A stretch of DNA of 64,000 nt from Enterobacter ludwigii (GCA_900068845.1 CEFQ01000010.1:88060-152059), one strand, 5' to 3'; shown: positions 13,820 to 23,827, counted from the stretch's first letter. A program made the numbers and translations. Notes: generated by a model from the sequence alone, not told the origin.

Positions 13820-15187
13820 TCACTCACCCACTAACATCGAATCCTGCGGTGCATTATCGCGCTGGGCTTTGGTTGCCAGGAAGTAGACGTATCCCACCGC
13901 CATAATCGCCACAAACAAGGCACCAATCACCGGGTTAAACCACAACATTGCCACCAGACACACCAGCGATAGCACCAGCGCAATACCCGGCACAATCGGA
14001 TAGCCCGGCGCACGGAAGCTGCGTTCCATCTCCGGCGCCGTCCGGCGCAGTTTAAACAGGCTCAGCATGCTCATCAGATACATCACAATCGCGCCGAACA
14101 CCGCCATGGTGATCATCGCGGCCGTCAGCGTCATACCTTGCAAATTGATGAAGCCATCGCTGTAGATCGCGGCGATACCAATCAAACCACCGGCGATAAT
14201 TGCGCGATGCGGCGTCTGGAAGCGTGACAGTTTCGCTAAACTGGGCGGCAGATAACCGGCGCGGGCGAGGGCGAAGAACTGGCGCGAATAGCCGAGAATA
14301 ATACCGTGGAAGCTGGCAATCAGACCAAACAGGCCAATCCACACCAGCATATGCATCCAGTTAGAGTTTTCACCCACGATCATCTTCATCGCCTGTGGCA
14401 AAGGATCGTTGATGTCTGACAGCTTGCGCCAGTCACCTGCACCGCCCGCCAGCAACATCACGCCAATCGCCAGCACCACCAGCGTCAAAATGCCGGTGAT
14501 ATAGGCTTTGGGAATGGTGCGTTTCGGGTCTTTGGCCTCTTCCGCCGCCATCGCAGCGCCTTCAATCGCGAGGAAGAACCAGATGGCGAAGGGAATGGCG
14601 GCGAAGATGCCCGACATTGCCGGCATGCCAAAGTGATCGCTGCCCGCCCAGCCGTTGGCGGCAAAGTTGGCGAGGCTGAAGCCCGGCGACACCACGCCCA
14701 TAAACACCAATAGCTCCAGAACCGCCAGCACCGTGACCACCAATTCGAACATCGCCGCCAGCTTTACGCCGAGAATGTTCAGCGTCATAAACACGATGTA
14801 GGCACCCACCGCAGCGGTTTTCGGATTGAGATCGGGATATTGCACGTTGAGGTAGGCACCAATCGCCATCGCAATAGCGGGTGGGGCGAACACGAACTCA
14901 ATCAGCGTGGCCAGGCCGGCAATCAAACCACCGGTTTCACCGAACGCGCGGCGGCTATAAGCAAATGGGCCACCGGCATGGGGAATCGCGGTGGTTAGTT
15001 CGGTAAAGCTAAAAATGAAGCAGGTATACAGGGTGGCGATCATTGCGGTGGTGATCAAAAATCCCAGCGTGCCCGCCACGCCCCAGCCATAACTCCAGCC
15101 AAAATATTCACCGGAAATCACCAGTCCAACCGCGATGCCCCACAAATGCAGGGCGCCCAGCGTGGGTTTGAGCTTATTCGTCATCAT
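13820..15187 (-). CDS. APC-superfamily permease, ethanolamine-permease type
   Basis: 455 residues with about 12 membrane helices. The start GALHLWGIAVGLVISGEYFGWSYGW and the IPHAGGPFAYSRRAFG segment resemble the ethanolamine permease (Eat) branch of the APC superfamily, rather than the cationic amino-acid branch. AEEAKDPKRTIPKAY is the conserved cytoplasmic loop of APC transporters. It is divergent from an APH-fold kinase gene, with 256 bp between them. The substrate is probably ethanolamine or a similar amino alcohol or amino acid, but this is inferred. Confidence 0.82.
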   Translation of the reverse strand: MMTNKLKPTLGALHLWGIAVGLVISGEYFGWSYGWGVAGTLGFLITTAMIATLYTCFIFSFTELTTAIPHAGGPFAYSRRAFGETGGLIAGLATLIEFVFAPPAIAMAIGAYLNVQYPDLNPKTAAVGAYIVFMTLNILGVKLAAMFELVVTVLAVLELLVFMGVVSPGFSLANFAANGWAGSDHFGMPAMSGIFAAIPFAIWFFLAIEGAAMAAEEAKDPKRTIPKAYITGILTLVVLAIGVMLLAGGAGDWRKLSDINDPLPQAMKMIVGENSNWMHMLVWIGLFGLIASFHGIILGYSRQFFALARAGYLPPSLAKLSRFQTPHRAIIAGGLIGIAAIYSDGFINLQGMTLTAAMITMAVFGAIVMYLMSMLSLFKLRRTAPEMERSFRAPGYPIVPGIALVLSLVCLVAMLWFNPVIGALFVAIMAVGYVYFLATKAQRDNAPQDSMLVGE

Positions 15188-15313
15188 CTTCTCCCCGTCG
15201 TCATTGTTGGTGCGGCAGCTTCACCGCGCTTTTTTATCTTTACGCTACAGTGAAGTGATAATGCCGTGGCATGGCGCGGGAAAACTTGACGCGGGCGCAG
15301 TGAGTTTTGTCCT

Positions 15314-15384
15314 CCACGGTCAACTCTGTGGCAAAAAAAGTGCCAGATGCACGCTGCGGTCAACTTTGGGTTGTCTGCGGTCAA
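15314..15384. promoter_or_regulatory. Direct repeats CTGCGGTCAA spaced 21 bp, candidate AraC-family site
   Basis: CTGCGGTCAA occurs at 15354-15363 and again at 15375-15384, exactly 21 bp apart. A third, 8-of-10 match (CCACGGTCAA) lies at 15314-15323, 40 bp upstream. Two direct half-sites 21 bp apart are the classic AraC-family arrangement. They sit between the divergent permease and kinase genes, and an AraC regulator gene is 1.3 kb away. Binding is inferred. Confidence 0.6.
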
Positions 15385-15443
15385 GCAGTCAGGACGACGT
15401 CATCCCATGCTGATAACACGTGCTTGATGCTGGAGACTGATGA

Positions 15444-16448
15444 ATGAGTGCCGAACAATCCGATAGCTTAACCGATGCTGAAATCACCCTGCTGGCGCAC
15501 CAGGCGCTGGCCTGTTATCCCGCCGCGCTGCGTGGCGAGCTGAAGCTGCTGTGCCGCTCGGAAAATGCCACCTTTCTGTTGCAGGCGGCGGGCAAACGCT
15601 ATGCGCTGCGCCTGCATCGCCCTAACTACCACAGCAAAGCGGACATCCAAAGCGAGCTGCTGTGGCTGGATGCGCTGCGTGACATCGGCATCATGGTGCC
15701 GCAGGCGATCCCGGCCAGCGATGGCGAAAGCGTATTGACGCTGCCGATGGCGAACAGCGCAGAGCGTTATGCGGTGCTGTTCCACTGGATCGAAGGTGAA
15801 ATGCCCACCACCGACGTTGATCCCAAAGCTTTTCAACAGCTCGGCCACATCACTGCGCGCCTGCATCAGCACAGCCGCAGCTGGCAGAAACCGGCGGGTT
15901 TCCAGCGCATCATTTGGGATCATCACACCATGGTGAGCGATCATAGTCACTGGGGACGCTGGCAGGATGCGCCGAACCTCAATCCGGCCGATCACAGCAT
16001 CGTTACCGAAGCGGTGACGCGTGTGGGGCAGGAGCTGCAAGGCTTTGGTAAAGGTGCGGATCGTTATGGTTTGATCCATGCCGATCTGCGCCTGACCAAC
16101 CTGCTGCTGCACAAAGGCGAAACGCGGGTGATCGATTTTGATGACTGCGGCTTGGGCTGGTACCTGCACGATCTGGCGGCAGCGATCAGTTTCGTCGAGC
16201 ATCATCCGCGTGCCGCCGAATGGGTGGATAACTGGATCCTCGGTTACGAAAAAGTGGCGCATATCAGCGATGAAGAGATGGCGCTAGTGCCGACGTTATT
16301 GATCCAGCGGCGTATTCAGATGACGGCGTGGATGGGATCGCATGCGGATACGGAAATGGCGCTGAGTCTTGGGCCGCGCTGGGCCGACCATTCGGTGCGG
16401 CTGTGCCGACGTTACCTGGAAACCAATCAGCTGCCGGTTGGCGTTTGA
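15444..16448 (+). CDS. APH-fold small-molecule kinase, 334 aa
   Basis: A phosphotransferase of the aminoglycoside/choline/homoserine kinase superfamily. The catalytic loop is IHADLRLTN (H212, D214, N219) and the metal site IDFDDCG (D231, D233). An Asn-Ala-Thr loop near 41 and YALRLHR (about 53-59) form the nucleotide pocket. Members phosphorylate hydroxyl groups of amino alcohols, hydroxylysine, homoserine or protein targets (SrkA). Divergent pairing with an ethanolamine-type permease suggests that it phosphorylates the imported compound. No phospholyase or aminotransferase gene lies nearby to complete such a pathway. Confidence 0.78.
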   Translation: MSAEQSDSLTDAEITLLAHQALACYPAALRGELKLLCRSENATFLLQAAGKRYALRLHRPNYHSKADIQSELLWLDALRDIGIMVPQAIPASDGESVLTLPMANSAERYAVLFHWIEGEMPTTDVDPKAFQQLGHITARLHQHSRSWQKPAGFQRIIWDHHTMVSDHSHWGRWQDAPNLNPADHSIVTEAVTRVGQELQGFGKGADRYGLIHADLRLTNLLLHKGETRVIDFDDCGLGWYLHDLAAAISFVEHHPRAAEWVDNWILGYEKVAHISDEEMALVPTLLIQRRIQMTAWMGSHADTEMALSLGPRWADHSVRLCRRYLETNQLPVGV

Positions 16449-16490
16449 TGCACCAGCAGTGAGCAGCCTTGCGCTGTCACAGCGCAATCG

Positions 16491-16660
16491 AGGTCGCCAT
16501 AAATGGCGTAATGCTTGTCAGTTAAGAGATGAAAACCCCAACTACCTGGCGCACACCTTGTAGCGGCGCAATTTATTGCGCGATAAATCGCGCCGCTACG
16601 GAATGTGCGGTAATTAATACGGGGCTTAACTGATCCGCATTACGCCATTCATGGCGACCT
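16491..16660. repeat. 170 bp element with 24 bp terminal inverted repeats, copy 1
   Basis: The ends are AGGTCGCCATAAATGGCG-TAATGC (16491-16514) and its inverse at 16637-16660, with one mismatch. The middle is a 40 bp palindromic core, GTAGCGGCGC...GCGCCGCTAC (16560-16599). A nearly identical element lies at 27339-27507 in the opposite orientation, with about a dozen differences by eye. It fills most of the gap between the kinase and AraC genes. Non-coding. Confidence 0.85.
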
Positions 16661-16747
16661 GGCAATAAAACCCGCAAATCATCCGCCTGGTACGAAAATT
16701 GCTGCAGTCCTCAATAAGTTTCACTTGCACCACCTGATGAGGTTCCG

Positions 16748-17839
16748 ATGCAATCATTCATGACACCCACCGAAGCCTTTAGCGCCTTAACCGTCGACGC
16801 CAGTAACCGCGGCGTTTTGGCAGCGGCGGCCACCGGGCTCAGCGGCTTTATCACTGACAAAGGCGGCGATGTTGACCGTATCTTTGGCATTAGTGGCATC
16901 AACGCCGAACTGCTGGCAAGCCCCACGCTGAGTCTGGGTTTGGTGAACTACTGTCGCGTGATGGAAGAAGCGGCGCGCCATTCCGGTTTTGATAACTTCG
17001 GTTTGCATTACGGCAAGCAGTTCAAACCGCAGTCATTAGGCTTGATTGGGTATATCGGGCTCTGTTCGCCCACGCTGGAGCAGGCGCTGCACAACGTGGT
17101 GAATGCGTTTCCATGGCATCAGCACGATACGCTGACGCGGCTGGTGGATAAAGGCGAGTGCTGGCGGCTCGATTATCAGGTGCGCCACGGTGCGATTCTC
17201 TCACGACGTCAGGATGCTGAGCTGACGCTCGGCATGTTCCTCAACCTGATCCGCCATGTTGCTGGCAAGCACTGGGCGCCGCGCGAAGTGCATTTTGAAC
17301 ACCCGCGCCCGGAGCAGTGGCACGAGCACTGCAAAGTCTTTGATGCGCCAGTGTGGTTCGATCAACCCTTCAATTCATTACTGATCCCAAAACGCGATCT
17401 GCTGCGCACGATGCCAGAACAGGATCCGATGTTGCTGATGGTGATGCAGGATGCCATTCGCCGTCTCAACAGTTGTGCCAGCCTGCAAAGCGTGGTGGAA
17501 CAGGCGCGTTCGCAGGTCAATCTGTCGCTAATGCAAGGCGAGCCGGTGCTGGAGGAGATTGCCGATAAAATGGGGCTGTCGAGCTGGTCGCTGCAACGGC
17601 GGCTGCGTGAAGAGGGCATCAGTTTCACGGCGCTGGTCGACAAGGTGCGCTGCGAGATGGCGACTCACTATTTGCAACAAAAGCAGCTGCCGATCTCAGA
17701 ATTGGCGCTGCTGCTCGGCTATTCCGAAGTCAGCGCCTTTTCTCGCGCGTTCCGTCGCTGGTTTGGTATTAGCCCGCGCCAGTGGCGTCAGGATGGATCG
17801 GCGTCGCCGGGGCAAAACCGAACCACGCTGGCTGGCTAG
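16748..17839 (+). CDS. AraC family regulator with arabinose-binding-like N-terminal domain (OruR/ArgR type)
   Basis: 363 residues. The N-terminal ~220 residues resemble the PF12625 domain of OruR-type AraC proteins (GLVNYCRVMEEAARHSG..FGLHYG). The C-terminal ~95 residues hold the double helix-turn-helix, with the second signature LALLLGYSEVSAFSRAFRRW. These regulators usually activate uptake and breakdown of amino acids or amines. Downstream of the permease/kinase pair, it is the likely regulator of that pair. Its 3' end overlaps the convergent lipoprotein gene by 71 bp. Confidence 0.85.
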   Translation: MQSFMTPTEAFSALTVDASNRGVLAAAATGLSGFITDKGGDVDRIFGISGINAELLASPTLSLGLVNYCRVMEEAARHSGFDNFGLHYGKQFKPQSLGLIGYIGLCSPTLEQALHNVVNAFPWHQHDTLTRLVDKGECWRLDYQVRHGAILSRRQDAELTLGMFLNLIRHVAGKHWAPREVHFEHPRPEQWHEHCKVFDAPVWFDQPFNSLLIPKRDLLRTMPEQDPMLLMVMQDAIRRLNSCASLQSVVEQARSQVNLSLMQGEPVLEEIADKMGLSSWSLQRRLREEGISFTALVDKVRCEMATHYLQQKQLPISELALLLGYSEVSAFSRAFRRWFGISPRQWRQDGSASPGQNRTTLAG

Positions 17840-18188
17840 TATCCGGCGGCGGCGGCAAATCTTTGTTTTGACCAATCAATTGCCAGGCGCGCAGGCACAG
17901 CGTTTCATCGCCTTGCGTCTGCGTCACCGCGTAGCGCCCGCTGCTTTGCCATTCGAGTCGCACCAGACATTGCTGACCCGCATAACGCCGGGCATCACGG
18001 AAATGCTGGTTGAGCTGATGCTGCATTTCATCAGCCCATTTACACGATGCGCTACCCGGCGCGCGCTGCGGCTGACAGAGATTGGCGATGCTATCCTGTT
18101 GCTTTGGCTGAGGATGCTGGCAAGCGCTGAGCGCGAAAGCAATCATTAACCCGCCCAATAATCCCGTCATTCGATTAATTAAATTCAT
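17769..18188 (-). CDS. Lipoprotein consisting of a TolA C-terminal domain, 139 aa
   Basis: A lipoprotein signal ending LSAC (lipid-modified C23) is followed by about 15 linker residues and a domain that aligns in pattern with TolA domain III: CKWADEMQHQLNQHF, DARRYAGQQCLVRLEW, DETLCLRAWQLIG, and a PPPPD stretch. In TolA this domain binds TolB, phage g3p and colicins; here it lacks the TolA membrane anchor and long helix. The start is the ATG at 18188; the open frame runs upstream without a signal peptide. It is divergent from the CsgG-like trio and overlaps the AraC gene end. Confidence 0.78.
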   Translation of the reverse strand: MNLINRMTGLLGGLMIAFALSACQHPQPKQQDSIANLCQPQRAPGSASCKWADEMQHQLNQHFRDARRYAGQQCLVRLEWQSSGRYAVTQTQGDETLCLRAWQLIGQNKDLPPPPDTSQPAWFGFAPATPIHPDATGAG

Positions 18189-18227
18189 TAATATGCCTGT
18201 CTTTTCACTAAAGTTCCTCTCCCTCAA

Positions 18228-18285
18228 TGCCGACAGTCTACAGACCGATTTAATCAATGCTATGGCATTACTCTGACTGTCGGCA
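18228..18285. promoter_or_regulatory. 11 bp inverted repeat in the divergent lipoprotein promoter
   Basis: TGCCGACAGTC (18228-18238) and its exact inverse GACTGTCGGCA (18275-18285) flank 36 bp. Inside lies a second palindrome, AATGCTATGGCATT (18256-18269). The structure sits between the TolA-domain lipoprotein (minus) and the CsgG-like operon (plus) and could be an operator for both. Confidence 0.5.
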
Positions 18286-18342
18286 GAACCAGAATTTGCC
18301 GCCACTTCGCGGCTTTATCTCCTTTTGATTCATGGATTAGAA

Positions 18343-19020
18343 ATGCAGAAAAAATATGCCCTTGCGGCACTCTCCTTGTTAAGCGTTTCGGTGCTCAGCG
18401 GTTGCGCCACCGAATCGTCACGTGCCATTGAAGCGCCACAAGTACGCGCGGCCAGCCAGCCCGCGTACCAAGGCGTACGCAGCCCGATTGCGGTCGGCCA
18501 GTTTGATAACCGCTCGTCGTACATGAACGGCATCTTCTCCGACGGCGTTGATCGTCTTGGCAATCAGTCGAAAACCATTTTGGTCACCCATCTGCAGCAG
18601 ACCAACCGCTTCAACGTGCTGGATCGCAGCAACCTGAAAGAGTTGCAGCAGGAAGCGGGCTTCAAGAAGAGCCAGCAGAACATTAAAGGCGCCACCTACA
18701 TCATCACCGGCGATATCACCGAATTTGGCCGTAAAGAAGTGGGCGATCAGCAGCTGTGGGGCATTTTGGGACGCGGTAAGAACCAAATCGCCTACGCCAA
18801 AGTGAACCTGAATGTGGTTGATGTTACCACCTCAGAAGTGGTGTACAGCGCGCAGGGCGCGGGCGAATTCAAGCTGTCGGCGCGTGAGGTTATCGGTTTT
18901 GGCGGTACGGCCAGCTATGACTCGACGCTGAATGGCAAAGTGATGGATCTGGCGATCCGTGAAGCGGTGGATCACTTAGTCGATGGTATTAACAGCGGCG
19001 CATGGCGTCCGGCGAAATAA
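18343..19020 (+). CDS. CsgG/HfaB family lipoprotein, 225 aa
   Basis: A lipoprotein with signal LLSVSVLSGC (C21) and a CsgG domain: SPIAVGQFDNRS, LVTHLQQTNRFNVLDRSNL, GATYIITGDITEFGRK, and a Gly-rich FGGTASYDS strand. CsgG of the curli system forms an outer-membrane pore, but no curli genes are here. The start is the ATG at 18343; an upstream TTG at 18325 is less likely because it would move the signal away from the N-terminus. It is the first of three lipoprotein genes of a CsgG/DUF4810/DUF799 set that also occurs in Neisseria (next to GNA1162). Function is not established. Confidence 0.85.
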   Translation: MQKKYALAALSLLSVSVLSGCATESSRAIEAPQVRAASQPAYQGVRSPIAVGQFDNRSSYMNGIFSDGVDRLGNQSKTILVTHLQQTNRFNVLDRSNLKELQQEAGFKKSQQNIKGATYIITGDITEFGRKEVGDQQLWGILGRGKNQIAYAKVNLNVVDVTTSEVVYSAQGAGEFKLSAREVIGFGGTASYDSTLNGKVMDLAIREAVDHLVDGINSGAWRPAK

Positions 19021-19031
19021 GGATATTGAGC

Positions 19032-19391
19032 ATGAAATTGTTGCAACTGAGTGCGGCGCTGATCGCCGCCGGCGTGCTAGCGGGCTGCGCACCGAAAGGG
19101 CCGGAGCCCATCTACTACTGGGGCGATTATCAGCAGCAGATCTACAGCTACTACAAAAATGACAGCGATCCGCAAAAGCAGATTGAGGCACTGAATCTGG
19201 ATATCGAAAAAGCCAAAGCGGTTAACAAGCCAGTGGCGCCAGGCCTGCACGCGCAATTGGGGCTGTTATATGCGAAAAACGGTGATACCGATAAAGCCTT
19301 CGGCCAGTTTGCCACCGAGAAACAGCTGTTCCCGGAATCGGCCCCGTACATGGACTTTCTGATGAAGAAAAAACAAGGAGTTGCCCAGTGA
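19032..19391 (+). CDS. DUF4810 lipoprotein, 119 aa
   Basis: The lipobox VLAGC (C19) is followed by APKGPEPIYYWGDYQQQIYSYY, typical of DUF4810, and a short TPR-like region (HAQLGLLYAKNGDTDKAFGQF). It begins 11 bp after the CsgG-like gene and overlaps the next gene by 4 bp (GTGA). Probably an outer-membrane partner of the CsgG-like protein. Confidence 0.88.
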   Translation: MKLLQLSAALIAAGVLAGCAPKGPEPIYYWGDYQQQIYSYYKNDSDPQKQIEALNLDIEKAKAVNKPVAPGLHAQLGLLYAKNGDTDKAFGQFATEKQLFPESAPYMDFLMKKKQGVAQ

Positions 19392-20041
19392 AAAAAATCA
19401 TTGCTGCTTGTGGTGTGCTTGCCGCACTGCTGCTGACCGGTTGTGCGCACAAAAAGCCGTATGACTACAGCGCCTTCCGCGCCAGCAAACCGGCATCTAT
19501 TCTGGTGCTACCGGCGGATAACCGTGCGCCCGATGTGAATGCGGCCAACAGCTTCACCTCTTTGGTGACGCGTCCACTGGCCGAAGCAGGCTATTACGTG
19601 TTCCCGGTGGCGGTGGTGGATGAAACCTTCCAGCAGAACGGATTGACCAATGGCCATGAAATCCAGGCCGTTAGCCCGCAGCGCCTGCACGATATTTTCC
19701 ACGCCGACAGCGCGCTGTACATTTCTGTTACCGATTACGGCAGCAGTTATCAGGTCATTCAGAGCGTGACCAAGGTGTCGGCAACGGCACGCCTGGTGGA
19801 TTTGCGCAGCGGTAAAGAGCTGTGGCAGGGGATTGCCACCGCCAGCGACGCGGAAGACGGCAACAACAATAACGGCGGCATTATCGGCATGTTGGTCTCC
19901 GCTGCGATTAAGCAGATTTCCAGCAATGTGTCGGATAAGGCGCACACCATCGCCGGTGTCACCAGCGCCCGTTTGTTAGCGCAAAACGAGCAGGGCGGTT
20001 TGCTGGTCGGCCCGCGTTATAAGTTGGCGAGCGCCCGGTAA
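19388..20041 (+). CDS. DUF799 (GNA1162-like) lipoprotein, 217 aa
   Basis: Lipobox LLTGC (C19), then a DUF799 domain beginning ASILVLPADNRAPDVNA, with DSALYISVTDYG and ATARLVDLRSGKELW strands. The meningococcal homologue GNA1162 is a surface lipoprotein related in fold to CsgG/TolB-like domains. The start is a GTG overlapping the stop of the DUF4810 gene (GTGA), so the pair is translationally coupled. Third and last gene of the trio. Confidence 0.88.
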   Translation: MKKIIAACGVLAALLLTGCAHKKPYDYSAFRASKPASILVLPADNRAPDVNAANSFTSLVTRPLAEAGYYVFPVAVVDETFQQNGLTNGHEIQAVSPQRLHDIFHADSALYISVTDYGSSYQVIQSVTKVSATARLVDLRSGKELWQGIATASDAEDGNNNNGGIIGMLVSAAIKQISSNVSDKAHTIAGVTSARLLAQNEQGGLLVGPRYKLASAR

Positions 20042-20057
20042 AAAAACGCAGTTAATC

Positions 20058-20128
20058 GTAGCGGCGCGATTTATCGCGCTTTTTCAGACGTGATCCGCTG
20101 CATGTAGCGCGATAAATCGCGCCGCTAC
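20058..20128. repeat. Perfect 23 bp inverted repeat, bidirectional terminator candidate
   Basis: GTAGCGGCGCGATTTATCGC-GCT (20058-20080) and its exact inverse (20106-20128) are separated by 25 bp. The arms match the core of the 170 bp repeats. It lies between the convergent DUF799 and sbcC genes, where it could end both transcripts. Confidence 0.75.
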
Positions 20129-20149
20129 GTATATTGTGCATTCTTAGGT

Positions 20150-23100
20150 TTACTCGCCCGGCAACTCCAGCTTGCTGTAGCCTAATCCATTCATCTTACG
20201 CACCCGGATCTGTACCGGAATACGCTCTTTCATCGCTTCCACATGACTGATCACGCCAATGGTTTTGCCGCTGGCGTTCAGGGCGTCGAGCGCATCCAAG
20301 GCGGTATCCAGCGTCTCGGCATCCAGCGTGCCGAAGCCTTCGTCGAGGAATAATGATTCGATGCGCGTTTTATGGCTGACTAAATCCGACAGCGCTAACG
20401 CCAGCGCCAGGCTGACAAGGAAGCTCTCACCGCCCGACAGCGTACGGGTGTCGCGCGTGGCATCCGCCTGCCAGGTATCAACCACTTCCAGTTCCAGCTC
20501 TTCACTGACGCGGCGTTGCAGCAGGTAGCGACCGTGCAGACGATCGAGCTGACGGTTCGCCAGCCACACCAGATGATCGAGCGTCAGGCCTTGCGCGAAG
20601 CGGCGGAATTTATCGCCTTTGGCCGAGCCAACCAGATCGTTCAGGCGGCTCAACTGCGCCAGCTCCACTTCATCAGTAGCGATTTGCGTCAGCAACGACT
20701 GCTGCTGTTGACGCCGTTGCGCATCGCTGTGCAACTGCTGCTGTGCCTCGCCCTGTTGACGCGCATTGTCACGCAGGGTCACGCGTAGCTGTTCCAGCTG
20801 GTGCTGGATGTGGGCGGCGACTTCATCACTGAGATCCGCCGGGCGCTGCTGCTGATGCATTATGCCGCGCTGCGTAAGCTGTTCACTCAGGGTAAGTTGC
20901 TGCTGGCGCTGTTGATCGAGCGTCTGCAACTGCTGGCGGAGTTGCTGCACCTCGCGCTCATCGAGCAGGGCGGCGCGCAGTGCTGTTTCATCAGCAAAAT
21001 CACTTTGCTGCAGCGCGACAAGGAAGGCATTTTCTGCGGCAGCGACGCGTTCACTCAACGTGTGTTGCTGCGCAGCAATTTGCTCACATTGCCCATTCAG
21101 GCTGTGCAGCAAGCTTTGTGCCTGTTGCCACTGCTCTAATTGTTGCGCCAGCGCCTGTTCACACTGCTGTAGCGCGGCGTGTTGCTGTTGACGTGCTTCC
21201 GCCACCCGACGATCGCCAAACAACTGCCGACGCTGTTGCTGCTGCTGTTGATGCTGCTGTTGCAGAGCGTTGAGCGAGTGCTGCAGCTCATCAAGCCGCT
21301 GCTGTTCACGCGCTAAATTCTGCTGCAAGCTGCTGCGTTCACTCTCTGCTTTTGCCAGCTGTGGCTGCAACTCGCTGTATAAACGCTCATTTTCCTGCCA
21401 TGAAGTCCAACGCTGCTGCAGCGCGTTGATCCAGCCTTCCCGCGCTGCCGCTTGTGGCAGGCTGAGCTGATGCTGCGACAATTGTTGTTCCAGCTGCTGC
21501 GCCAGTTGCTGCATGGCGCTGCGTTCAGTGGCTTCGCGTTGGATGATTTCATCCAGCGTCTGCTGCGTACTGATGATCTGCTGCTGCGCCAGCTGCTGCT
21601 GATTTTGATGCTGTTGCCACCGTTGCTGCTGTTGCAGATGGGCGTCTTTTGCCTGCTGCACCGCACGTGCGGCGTTTTCCCGCACCTGTAGCTGCTGCTG
21701 CTGTGTCTGTTCCTGCGCATCCTGCTGTTGCTGCCACTGCGCAAAGTCATCCTGTTGCTCCAGTGTGCAGGTAAGTGCCAGCTCACCGCACAGCGCTTGC
21801 CACTGGGTGTTCACCGTTGTGAGCTGCTGGTCGTATTCGCTGATTTCCTGCTGCAGCGCCTGCTGCTGTTGCAGCGACAATTTCTGCTGCTCGCCTTTGG
21901 CGGTGCCGGACTCTTTCAGCTGCGCCACGCGCGTTTCCAGCTCGACCAGACGCTGCTGATTGGCGCCTGGCTCAAGCTGCTGATATTGCGCGATAGCCGG
22001 ATGCTGGCACGAGCCGCACAGCGGGCAGGGCTGATCCGGCTGCAGTTTCGCGCGCTCATCAGCCAGCTGGGCGATGGTGCGCTCCAGCTCACAGATTTTG
22101 CGCACATCAAGCAGCGCCTGATGTTCCCGCTTGTAGGCTTCGCGCAGTACCTGCAACGCTTGTTCAGCTTCCTGATGTTGCTGCTGCAACTGCGCCAGTT
22201 TCTGCTGACGCTGCACCCGCTGCGGTTGTAGCGAGCGCCACTGCGCGGCGAGCAGGCTGAGCTGCTGCCGCGCAGCACGCTGCGCTTGATGTTGCGTCAA
22301 GGCGGCACGCAGCTGTGGACTGGCGACTTCAGACTCAAGCGAAGTCAGTGCTTGCTCCGCTTGCAGCCGCTGCTGCGCGGCCTGCGCTTCGGCTTGCTGC
22401 AAGGGTTGCGCCGCCTGTTCACGCTGGGTCTGCGCCTGTTGATGCTGCTCCAGTTGGTTGCGCTGCTGCTGTTGCTGCGCAATCAACTGTTTTAGCGTCT
22501 GTTCGCGTTCATCCAGTCGGGCGATCTCCGCCTGCCAGCGGGTCAGTTCAGCGCCCCAATGGGCCACTGCAGCTTCTCGGGAGCGGAATTCCTGCTGCTG
22601 CGCCAGCTGCTGTTGTAAATGTTCACTTACCTGCTGTTGCTTGCTGAGCGCGATTTGGCTGGTTTGCAGCGCCTGTTGCTGCTGCACATGCAGCCGCTGT
22701 TGCTCATCCAACTGCTGTGACAGGGTGGTGATGCGTTGATCGAGCGGGATAACCTGCTCGGTCAGCAGCGTTTCTAGCTGCTGCTGTTGCTGTAACGCCT
22801 GCTCGCGTGCCTGCTGCGCTGCCTGATAGTGGCTTTCGTGCTGTTGCAGCGCGCTTTTGGCCTGCTGCTGTTGCGCCTGTCGCTGCTGTGATTGCTGTTC
22901 CAGCGTGCGACGATCGCTTTGCAACTGTTCGCGCTGTTGTAGCTTCTCACGCAGTTTTTCTGCCGGTTCGGCCCGCGCCAGCCGCTGACGATCGCCATCG
23001 GCCTGCTGCCAGGCCTGTTGCGCGGCAAGCAGCGTCTGTTCCGCCTGCTGCTGTTCCTGCGTCAGCTGCTGTTGCTGCATCAGCCATTGTTGCTGATGTT

Positions 23101-23827
23101 GCGCCAGCGTTAGCTGTTCGCTGAGGGCTTTCTCCTGCACACTCAGATCCGCCAACTGCTGCGTCAGTTCTGCGCGGCGCGCTTCATCGAGCAGCGACAT
23201 GCCGCCGGCGCGGGCGCGCAGCGTCTCCAGCTCGCCACGCGCGGTGCGCCAGCGCTCGTAAATCTGCACCGAGATTTGTCCGTAAATTTCGGTGCCGGTT
23301 AGCTCTTCCAGCAGCTCGGCGCGTTCGCCGGGTTTGGCATTCAGAAAGGCGGCAAACTGGCCCTGCGACAGCATCATCGAGCGGGTAAAGCGGGCGAAGT
23401 CGAGTCCCGACAGGGTTTCAATTGCTTTCAGTTTGTCGCCGACTTTATCGGCGATGATTTGATTATCGGCGACGCGTGCCAGCTCGACGCGCGGCGCCTG
23501 CAGTTTGCCGTCGGCCAGGCCGCGCGCGCGGTTCTGGCTCCAAAAGGCGCGCCAGGCTTCGCCTTTGATCTCAAACTCCACTTCGGCCAGACACTCGGCG
23601 GTGTCGCGCGTGATTAGCTCATTCTGCGTTTGCGACAGCGTGCCGAGGCGCGGCGTCTGGTGATAGAGCGCCAGACAAATGGCATCAAGCAAAGTGGTTT
23701 TGCCCGCGCCGGTGGCGCCGGTAATGGCAAATAATCCATTGCTGGCAAAAGGCTCACGGCGGAAATCGATAAACCATTCGCCGCGCAGTGCATTGAGGTT
23801 TTTAAAGCGTAGCGTCAAAATTTTCAT
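20150..23827 (-). CDS. sbcC: Exonuclease subunit SbcC
   Basis: ATPase subunit of the SbcCD nuclease, which cuts hairpins and protein-blocked DNA ends. The N-terminal lobe has Walker [14 protein letters not shown]; the C-terminal lobe has TLSGGESFL and [12 protein letters not shown] zinc hook, CPLCG, is near residue 600. At 1225 residues it is longer than the 1048 of E. coli SbcC; the extra length is in coiled-coil arms exceptionally rich in glutamine. The ATG overlaps the sbcD stop (ATGA). Confidence 0.96.

Follow-up and report, generated by a model that had tools for sequence, protein, structure and literature searches.

We analyzed a stretch of 64,000 nucleotides (nt) of genomic DNA (GCA_900068845.1, CEFQ01000010.1:88060-152059), hereafter the window, from whose first letter all coordinates are counted, and which harbors a divergent locus for four predicted lipoproteins. 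On the minus strand, the gene of a TolA-domain-III lipoprotein, here called TolAlip, runs from an ATG at 18188 to a stop ending at 17769 (17769..18188) and codes for 139 amino acids (aa), with the lipobox LSA/C and a Gln at +2. An intergenic region of 154 bp (18189..18342) separates it from three plus-strand genes, collectively called the trio: csgG-like (18343..19020; 225 aa, lipobox LSG/C), DUF4810 (19032..19391; 119 aa, TPR-like, lipobox LAG/C) and GNA1162/DUF799 (19388..20041; 217 aa, lipobox LTG/C), the last of which starts with GTG, overlaps the DUF4810 stop by 4 nt and encodes a homologue of the solved structure 4hrv. The starts chosen here improve on those of the longest open reading frames. 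Each protein has a predicted signal peptide, a lipobox and a Cys near the N terminus, and each scores above the curated cut-off of its Pfam family, i.e., PF06519 (TolA C-terminal; 31.4 bits, cut-off 25), PF03783 (CsgG; 96.3 bits, cut-off 20.8), PF16068 (DUF4810; 117 bits, cut-off 34.7) and PF05643 (GNA1162-like; 272 bits, cut-off 25.9). An earlier note on this DNA had placed four lipoproteins here with no curli genes nearby, and both statements were borne out: curli genes are absent from the locus, and the csgG-like gene is the sole PF03783 gene of the genome. The one other TolA-domain gene is the true tolA, which is located elsewhere and whose open frame has 438 codons. Comparative genomics indicates that TolAlip and the trio are very probably independent modules.

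The same note had seen in the four genes a hint of a single system, to be checked by asking whether the TolA-domain gene accompanies the trio elsewhere. Among 292 genomes of the family outside the genus (in all counts Pantoea, where we place the genome of the window), the trio was found in 46, TolAlip (E value of at most 1e-8) in 10, and both in one, against 1.6 expected (Fisher P = 1); 45 of the 46 trio-bearing genomes lack TolAlip. A four-gene functional unit was rejected on this co-occurrence, which does not extend beyond one lineage, Pantoea/Erwinia, and one inherited site. The 15-kb flanks of 29 trios from other genera fell into about 20 neighborhoods, one of them shared by nine trios, and only the three trio genes recurred throughout. 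In a phylum-wide sample, the GNA1162 family was present in 51 of 398 genomes; at all 17 loci inspected the csgG-like, DUF4810 and GNA1162 genes stood in identical order, and none of these 17 trios had TolAlip beside it. The csgG-like protein is 64-76% identical across the family and across classes, these 17 loci included, and Neisseria gonorrhoeae records hold a GNA1162 homologue with 49% identity. The claim that the trio occurs in distant bacteria, Neisseria among them, thus holds. Judged by its distribution, the trio is a self-contained cassette at many sites of the phylum.

Within the genus, TolAlip was found in 57 of 60 genomes, the three without it having genomes of 1.4-2.9 Mb. The trio was found in 25 of the 60, a count that includes one genome with a 37-residue remnant (G020) and one contig with most genes frameshifted (G371), and all these trios sit between TolAlip and sbcC (20150..23827, minus strand). 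The csgG-like protein is 88-100% identical within the genus; TolAlip shares 91% identity with its counterparts in Pantoea endophytica and Pantoea sp. SOD02. TolAlip outlives the trio: 32 of the 57 genomes carry it without the trio, two of them with a protein 81% identical to that of the window. In G015 and G020, csgG or GNA1162 fragments were left at the site next to an intact TolAlip, showing that the trio was deleted. G371 was left out as evidence of loss because most genes of the stretch are frameshifted; there, mak, the genes for an ethanolamine permease, an APH-type kinase and an AraC regulator, GNA1162 and sbcC are all affected (L151), which points to either a low-quality assembly or genome decay. 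Among the diverged genus members, the usual position of TolAlip is directly downstream of sbcC on the same strand, with no trio. The slot layout of the window is also found in Erwinia sp. 198 and in the sister-genus genome G229. Pantoea, Erwinia and Mixta have TolAlip as a resident gene beside sbcC, just downstream of sbcDC.

A tree of GNA1162 and DUF4810 united the genus trios and the slot trio of G229 in one clade (support 100/99), apart from 39 other family trios, and an SbcC tree of 64 genomes called for at least 10 changes of trio state; an ancestral trio would imply 17 losses inside the genus. The trio was probably inserted between sbcC and TolAlip before the split of Pantoea and its sister genera and then lost many times. 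We also compared ratios of nonsynonymous to synonymous substitution rates (dN/dS) against the nearest relatives. These were 0.13-0.23 for TolAlip, 0.03-0.05 for csgG-like, 0.03-0.11 for DUF4810, 0.04-0.09 for GNA1162 and 0.08-0.14 for sbcC. Against the trio-less relatives L203 and L211, the TolAlip ratios were 0.17 and 0.16, within the range of 0.13-0.23 obtained with trio-bearing relatives. The ratios indicate that TolAlip is under purifying selection where the trio is absent, arguing that it is functional without the trio, if faster-changing than its neighbors.

The 154-bp region had been described as one divergent promoter region shared by both sides. This holds as geometry; the conserved promoter-like element within the region, however, is that of TolAlip and is kept without the trio. 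It consists of a putative -10 (18235..18240; TAGACT on the minus strand) and a putative -35/operator zone on the TolAlip (minus) strand (18258..18269; TGCTATGGCATT on plus), around which lies a perfect 11-bp inverted repeat, TGCCGACAGTC / GACTGTCGGCA, with arms 36 nt apart (18228..18285). In all 44 genus genomes with a close-type TolAlip, whether the trio is present or not, TAnACT on the TolAlip strand stands exactly 17 nt from nGCTATGGCA (plus), and the inverted repeat is partly retained in trio-less relatives; the element is absent from all diverged-type and other-genus loci. The element is best read as a putative promoter of TolAlip itself, probably regulated. The 20-base pattern GCTATGGCATTNCTCYGACT around the -35 zone recurs only once in the genome, at 3 mismatches, and a regulon sharing the motif was rejected on account of this weak match. 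No known RNA or riboswitch was found within the window.

The flanks of the locus have features of their own. A gene for an AraC-type regulator (16748..17839, plus strand) lies tail-to-tail with TolAlip, overlapping it by 71 bp, and is outside the module. This QhpR-like regulator forms a block with the ethanolamine permease and the APH-type kinase (13820-17839); some relatives have this block between rdgC/mak and TolAlip, and others lack it. On the other side, 3' of the trio, we found a palindrome resembling repetitive extragenic palindromic (REP) elements, with 24-bp arms (20057..20129); its half-sites occur genome-wide in 178 forward and 192 reverse copies with at most 2 mismatches, against 0 for the reversed control pattern.

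The fold of TolAlip was modeled with AlphaFold2 from an alignment of 31 homologues. The model is confident over about residues 40-130, with a core pLDDT of about 95, and its best structural match is domain III of Escherichia coli TolA (TolAIII; Foldseek, 2x9a, E 2e-4). Superposition on 3qdp gave a VIA Z of 9.5 over 82 residues (model 45-127 on chain 334-421), and a profile built from the homologue alignment retrieved TolA chains at E 7.5e-10. The protein has four Cys in the mature domain region, the family signature GDExLCL(R/K)AW and a C-terminal strand (121-125) with an F-x-P motif, in which F125 and P127 are nearly invariant among the 31 homologues. The structural alignment terminates at P127 over E. 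coli P421, and in the model the last strand, with F125/P127, matches the end of beta3 in TolA. That strand is bound by g3p and by colicin N, and TolB competes for it (PMC4339652; review PMC7391070). In Pseudomonas aeruginosa TolAIII, TolB displaces a C-terminal helix (PMC7391070); as residues 108-120 of TolAlip, just before its last strand, are non-helical in the model, TolAlip may present the strand without such a rearrangement. The domain had been called TolB-binding-type in a system with the trio; in the model it has a true TolAIII fold in which the TolB-binding strand is preserved, and it is the joint system that did not stand.

TolAlip cannot be TolA itself, since it has neither a membrane helix nor a long arm and scores 33.5 bits against the full-length TolA equivalog TIGR02794 (cut-off 59.45). 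A phage origin was rejected, with no match among 50,697 phage records, as was a plasmid origin, with only distant (27%) TolA-like proteins encoded near psiA on conjugative or mobilizable plasmids. The plasmid hits (H1-H12; in Klebsiella, Serratia, Escherichia and Citrobacter) are TolA-domain genes annotated as tolA that overlap psiA or lie beside it, e.g., NZ_CP122576.1:173524-173844. Further small TolA-domain proteins are encoded at sites unrelated to sbcC (L145 in G311, L146 in G143), which means that free-standing TolAIII proteins are not confined to the sbcC slot.

As to the trio, the profile match between the csgG-like protein and E. coli CsgG covers almost the full length. In contrast to a plain protein of LpoB type, it has both segments that align to the transmembrane hairpins of CsgG (residue ranges after Goyal et al. 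2014), free of deletions, along with residues that align to the Tyr and the Phe of the CsgG constriction loop. A role as CsgG in curli secretion was rejected: the curli CsgG equivalog scores 15.9 bits (cut-off 505), the genome has no other CsgG-family gene, and curli genes are lacking at the locus. The GNA1162 protein matches 4hrv at E 1.6e-55. GNA1162 is listed as a protein of unknown function with a structure similar to those of TolB and LptE, in line with the note's remark that the trio has no settled function (PMC6497663). In biofilms formed by two species of Pasteurellaceae, expression of homologues annotated as NMB1162 and NMB1164 is raised (PMC4245831).

At the level of gene distribution, a resident TolAIII lipoprotein and a widespread cassette have come to lie side by side in one particular lineage, and an account in which the two are separate modules in one chromosomal slot appears, as a whole, reasonably probable. 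The domains belong to known families, and the functions considered here for TolAlip and the trio are proposals drawn from sequences and models. TolAlip is most likely a free-standing TolA domain III anchored in the outer membrane. We propose that its exposed C-terminal beta strand would pair with the N terminus of TolB; phage g3p or colicin N-type ligands, which in TolA bind this strand, might be further partners. TolAlip would then compete with true TolA and so tune or shield Tol-Pal. This mechanism, with its partners, is tentative. A more specific version, in which the TolB-binding strand is permanently exposed and the protein either restrains Tol-Pal or acts as a decoy for filamentous phages and Tol-dependent bacteriocins, seems rather unlikely; no description of such a class of tethered TolAIII regulators was found in the literature searched. 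For the trio, the csgG-like protein may form a CsgG-type outer membrane pore, with the TPR-like and the TolB/LptE-like lipoproteins aiding substrate loading or gating, a mechanism that we regard as quite possible, though short of an even chance.

Several observations weigh against this interpretation. All 25 genus trios adjoin TolAlip, and the arrangement is old, being found in two or more genera, which makes a facultative functional link conceivable. The TolAlip tree, which has long branches and is to be read cautiously, conflicts with the SbcC tree for one clade, whose TolAlip and trio look co-transferred from another clade. This disagreement points to exchange of the slot by recombination as well, in which case neighbors would move together and the count of losses may be inflated. 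The single-chain fold model of the csgG-like protein is too poor (pLDDT 49) to show barrel strands. The adjacency, which extends to G229 and Erwinia sp. 198, the intergenic region common to both sides, the apparent co-transfer and the slight resemblance of the csgG-like protein to TolB_N, which falls short of the Pfam cut-off, would all fit one envelope-assembly or Tol-Pal-linked system, in which a CsgG-type complex would be coupled through TolAlip to TolB or to the energy of Tol-Pal. We nevertheless consider such a system very improbable. Neighbors at a fixed site are expected to be transferred jointly, the promoter-like element of TolAlip is independent of the trio, and TolAlip is missing from 45 of the 46 trio-bearing genomes of other genera, while 32 genus genomes and nine others retain it, under similar constraint, in the absence of the trio.

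Within the two-module account, each part has a competing explanation. TolAlip might be a periplasmic lipoprotein of decoy or immunity type, a tethered TolAIII that traps g3p of filamentous phages or Tol-dependent bacteriocins. The TolAIII fold with the strand for g3p, colicin N and TolB is kept, the lack of a helix at residues 108-120 of the model may leave that strand exposed, and TolAlip has the highest dN/dS of the locus genes compared (0.13-0.23 versus 0.03-0.11 for the trio); moreover, TolAIII directed to the periplasm has been used in E. coli to render the outer membrane leaky (PMC6195910). We find this role doubtful, however, as the overall dN/dS is well below 1, phage records hold no match and, unlike most accessory defense genes, TolAlip is kept in nearly all genomes of the genus. 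The csgG-like protein, for its part, could be a soluble, LpoB-like periplasmic regulator, e.g., of peptidoglycan synthases, rather than a pore, since it scores 23.1 bits against Pfam LpoB, just above the cut-off of 22.3. The CsgG match is far stronger and nearly end to end, both hairpin-aligned stretches are present without deletion, and 64-76% identity across classes suggests a strong structural constraint, making the LpoB-like role an unlikely one. The LpoB equivalog TIGR02722 was matched only by the GNA1162 protein, at 16.3 bits (cut-off 110.55).

What appeared to be a single problem is split into two by the separation of TolAlip from the trio: a candidate export cassette and a free-standing TolAIII lipoprotein. 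The trio is a widespread and highly conserved candidate for outer membrane export. Should TolAlip bind TolB, it would provide a natural point of access to Tol-Pal regulation and to the entry of phages and bacteriocins, and Pantoea strains with the same TolAlip that have or lack the trio are natural controls.

Both modules can be set against known systems. The Neisseria lipoproteins NMB1124-1126 and NMB1162-1164, which include GNA1162 (4hrv), share the GNA1162 homology of the window trio; no TolA-domain gene was found alongside trios outside the Pantoea/Erwinia lineage, whereas the window has one. Like the CsgG curli channel (PF03783; PDB 4uv3, 6si7), the csgG-like protein is a predicted lipoprotein with a near-full profile match, both hairpin-aligned stretches and aligned constriction-loop residues (Tyr and Phe). 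It has 225 aa versus 277 for CsgG, however, and its partners are DUF4810 and GNA1162 rather than CsgE, CsgF and CsgA. TolAlip resembles domain III of E. coli TolA (PF06519; PDB 3qdp, 1tol, 6s3w) in its predicted fold, a Cys pair and a C-terminal strand ending in F-x-P. In contrast to E. coli TolA, it is a 139-aa lipoprotein devoid of the transmembrane helix and the long helical arm, and it differs from domain III in that its model has no helix at residues 108-120 and that most of its homologues carry an extra Cys pair.

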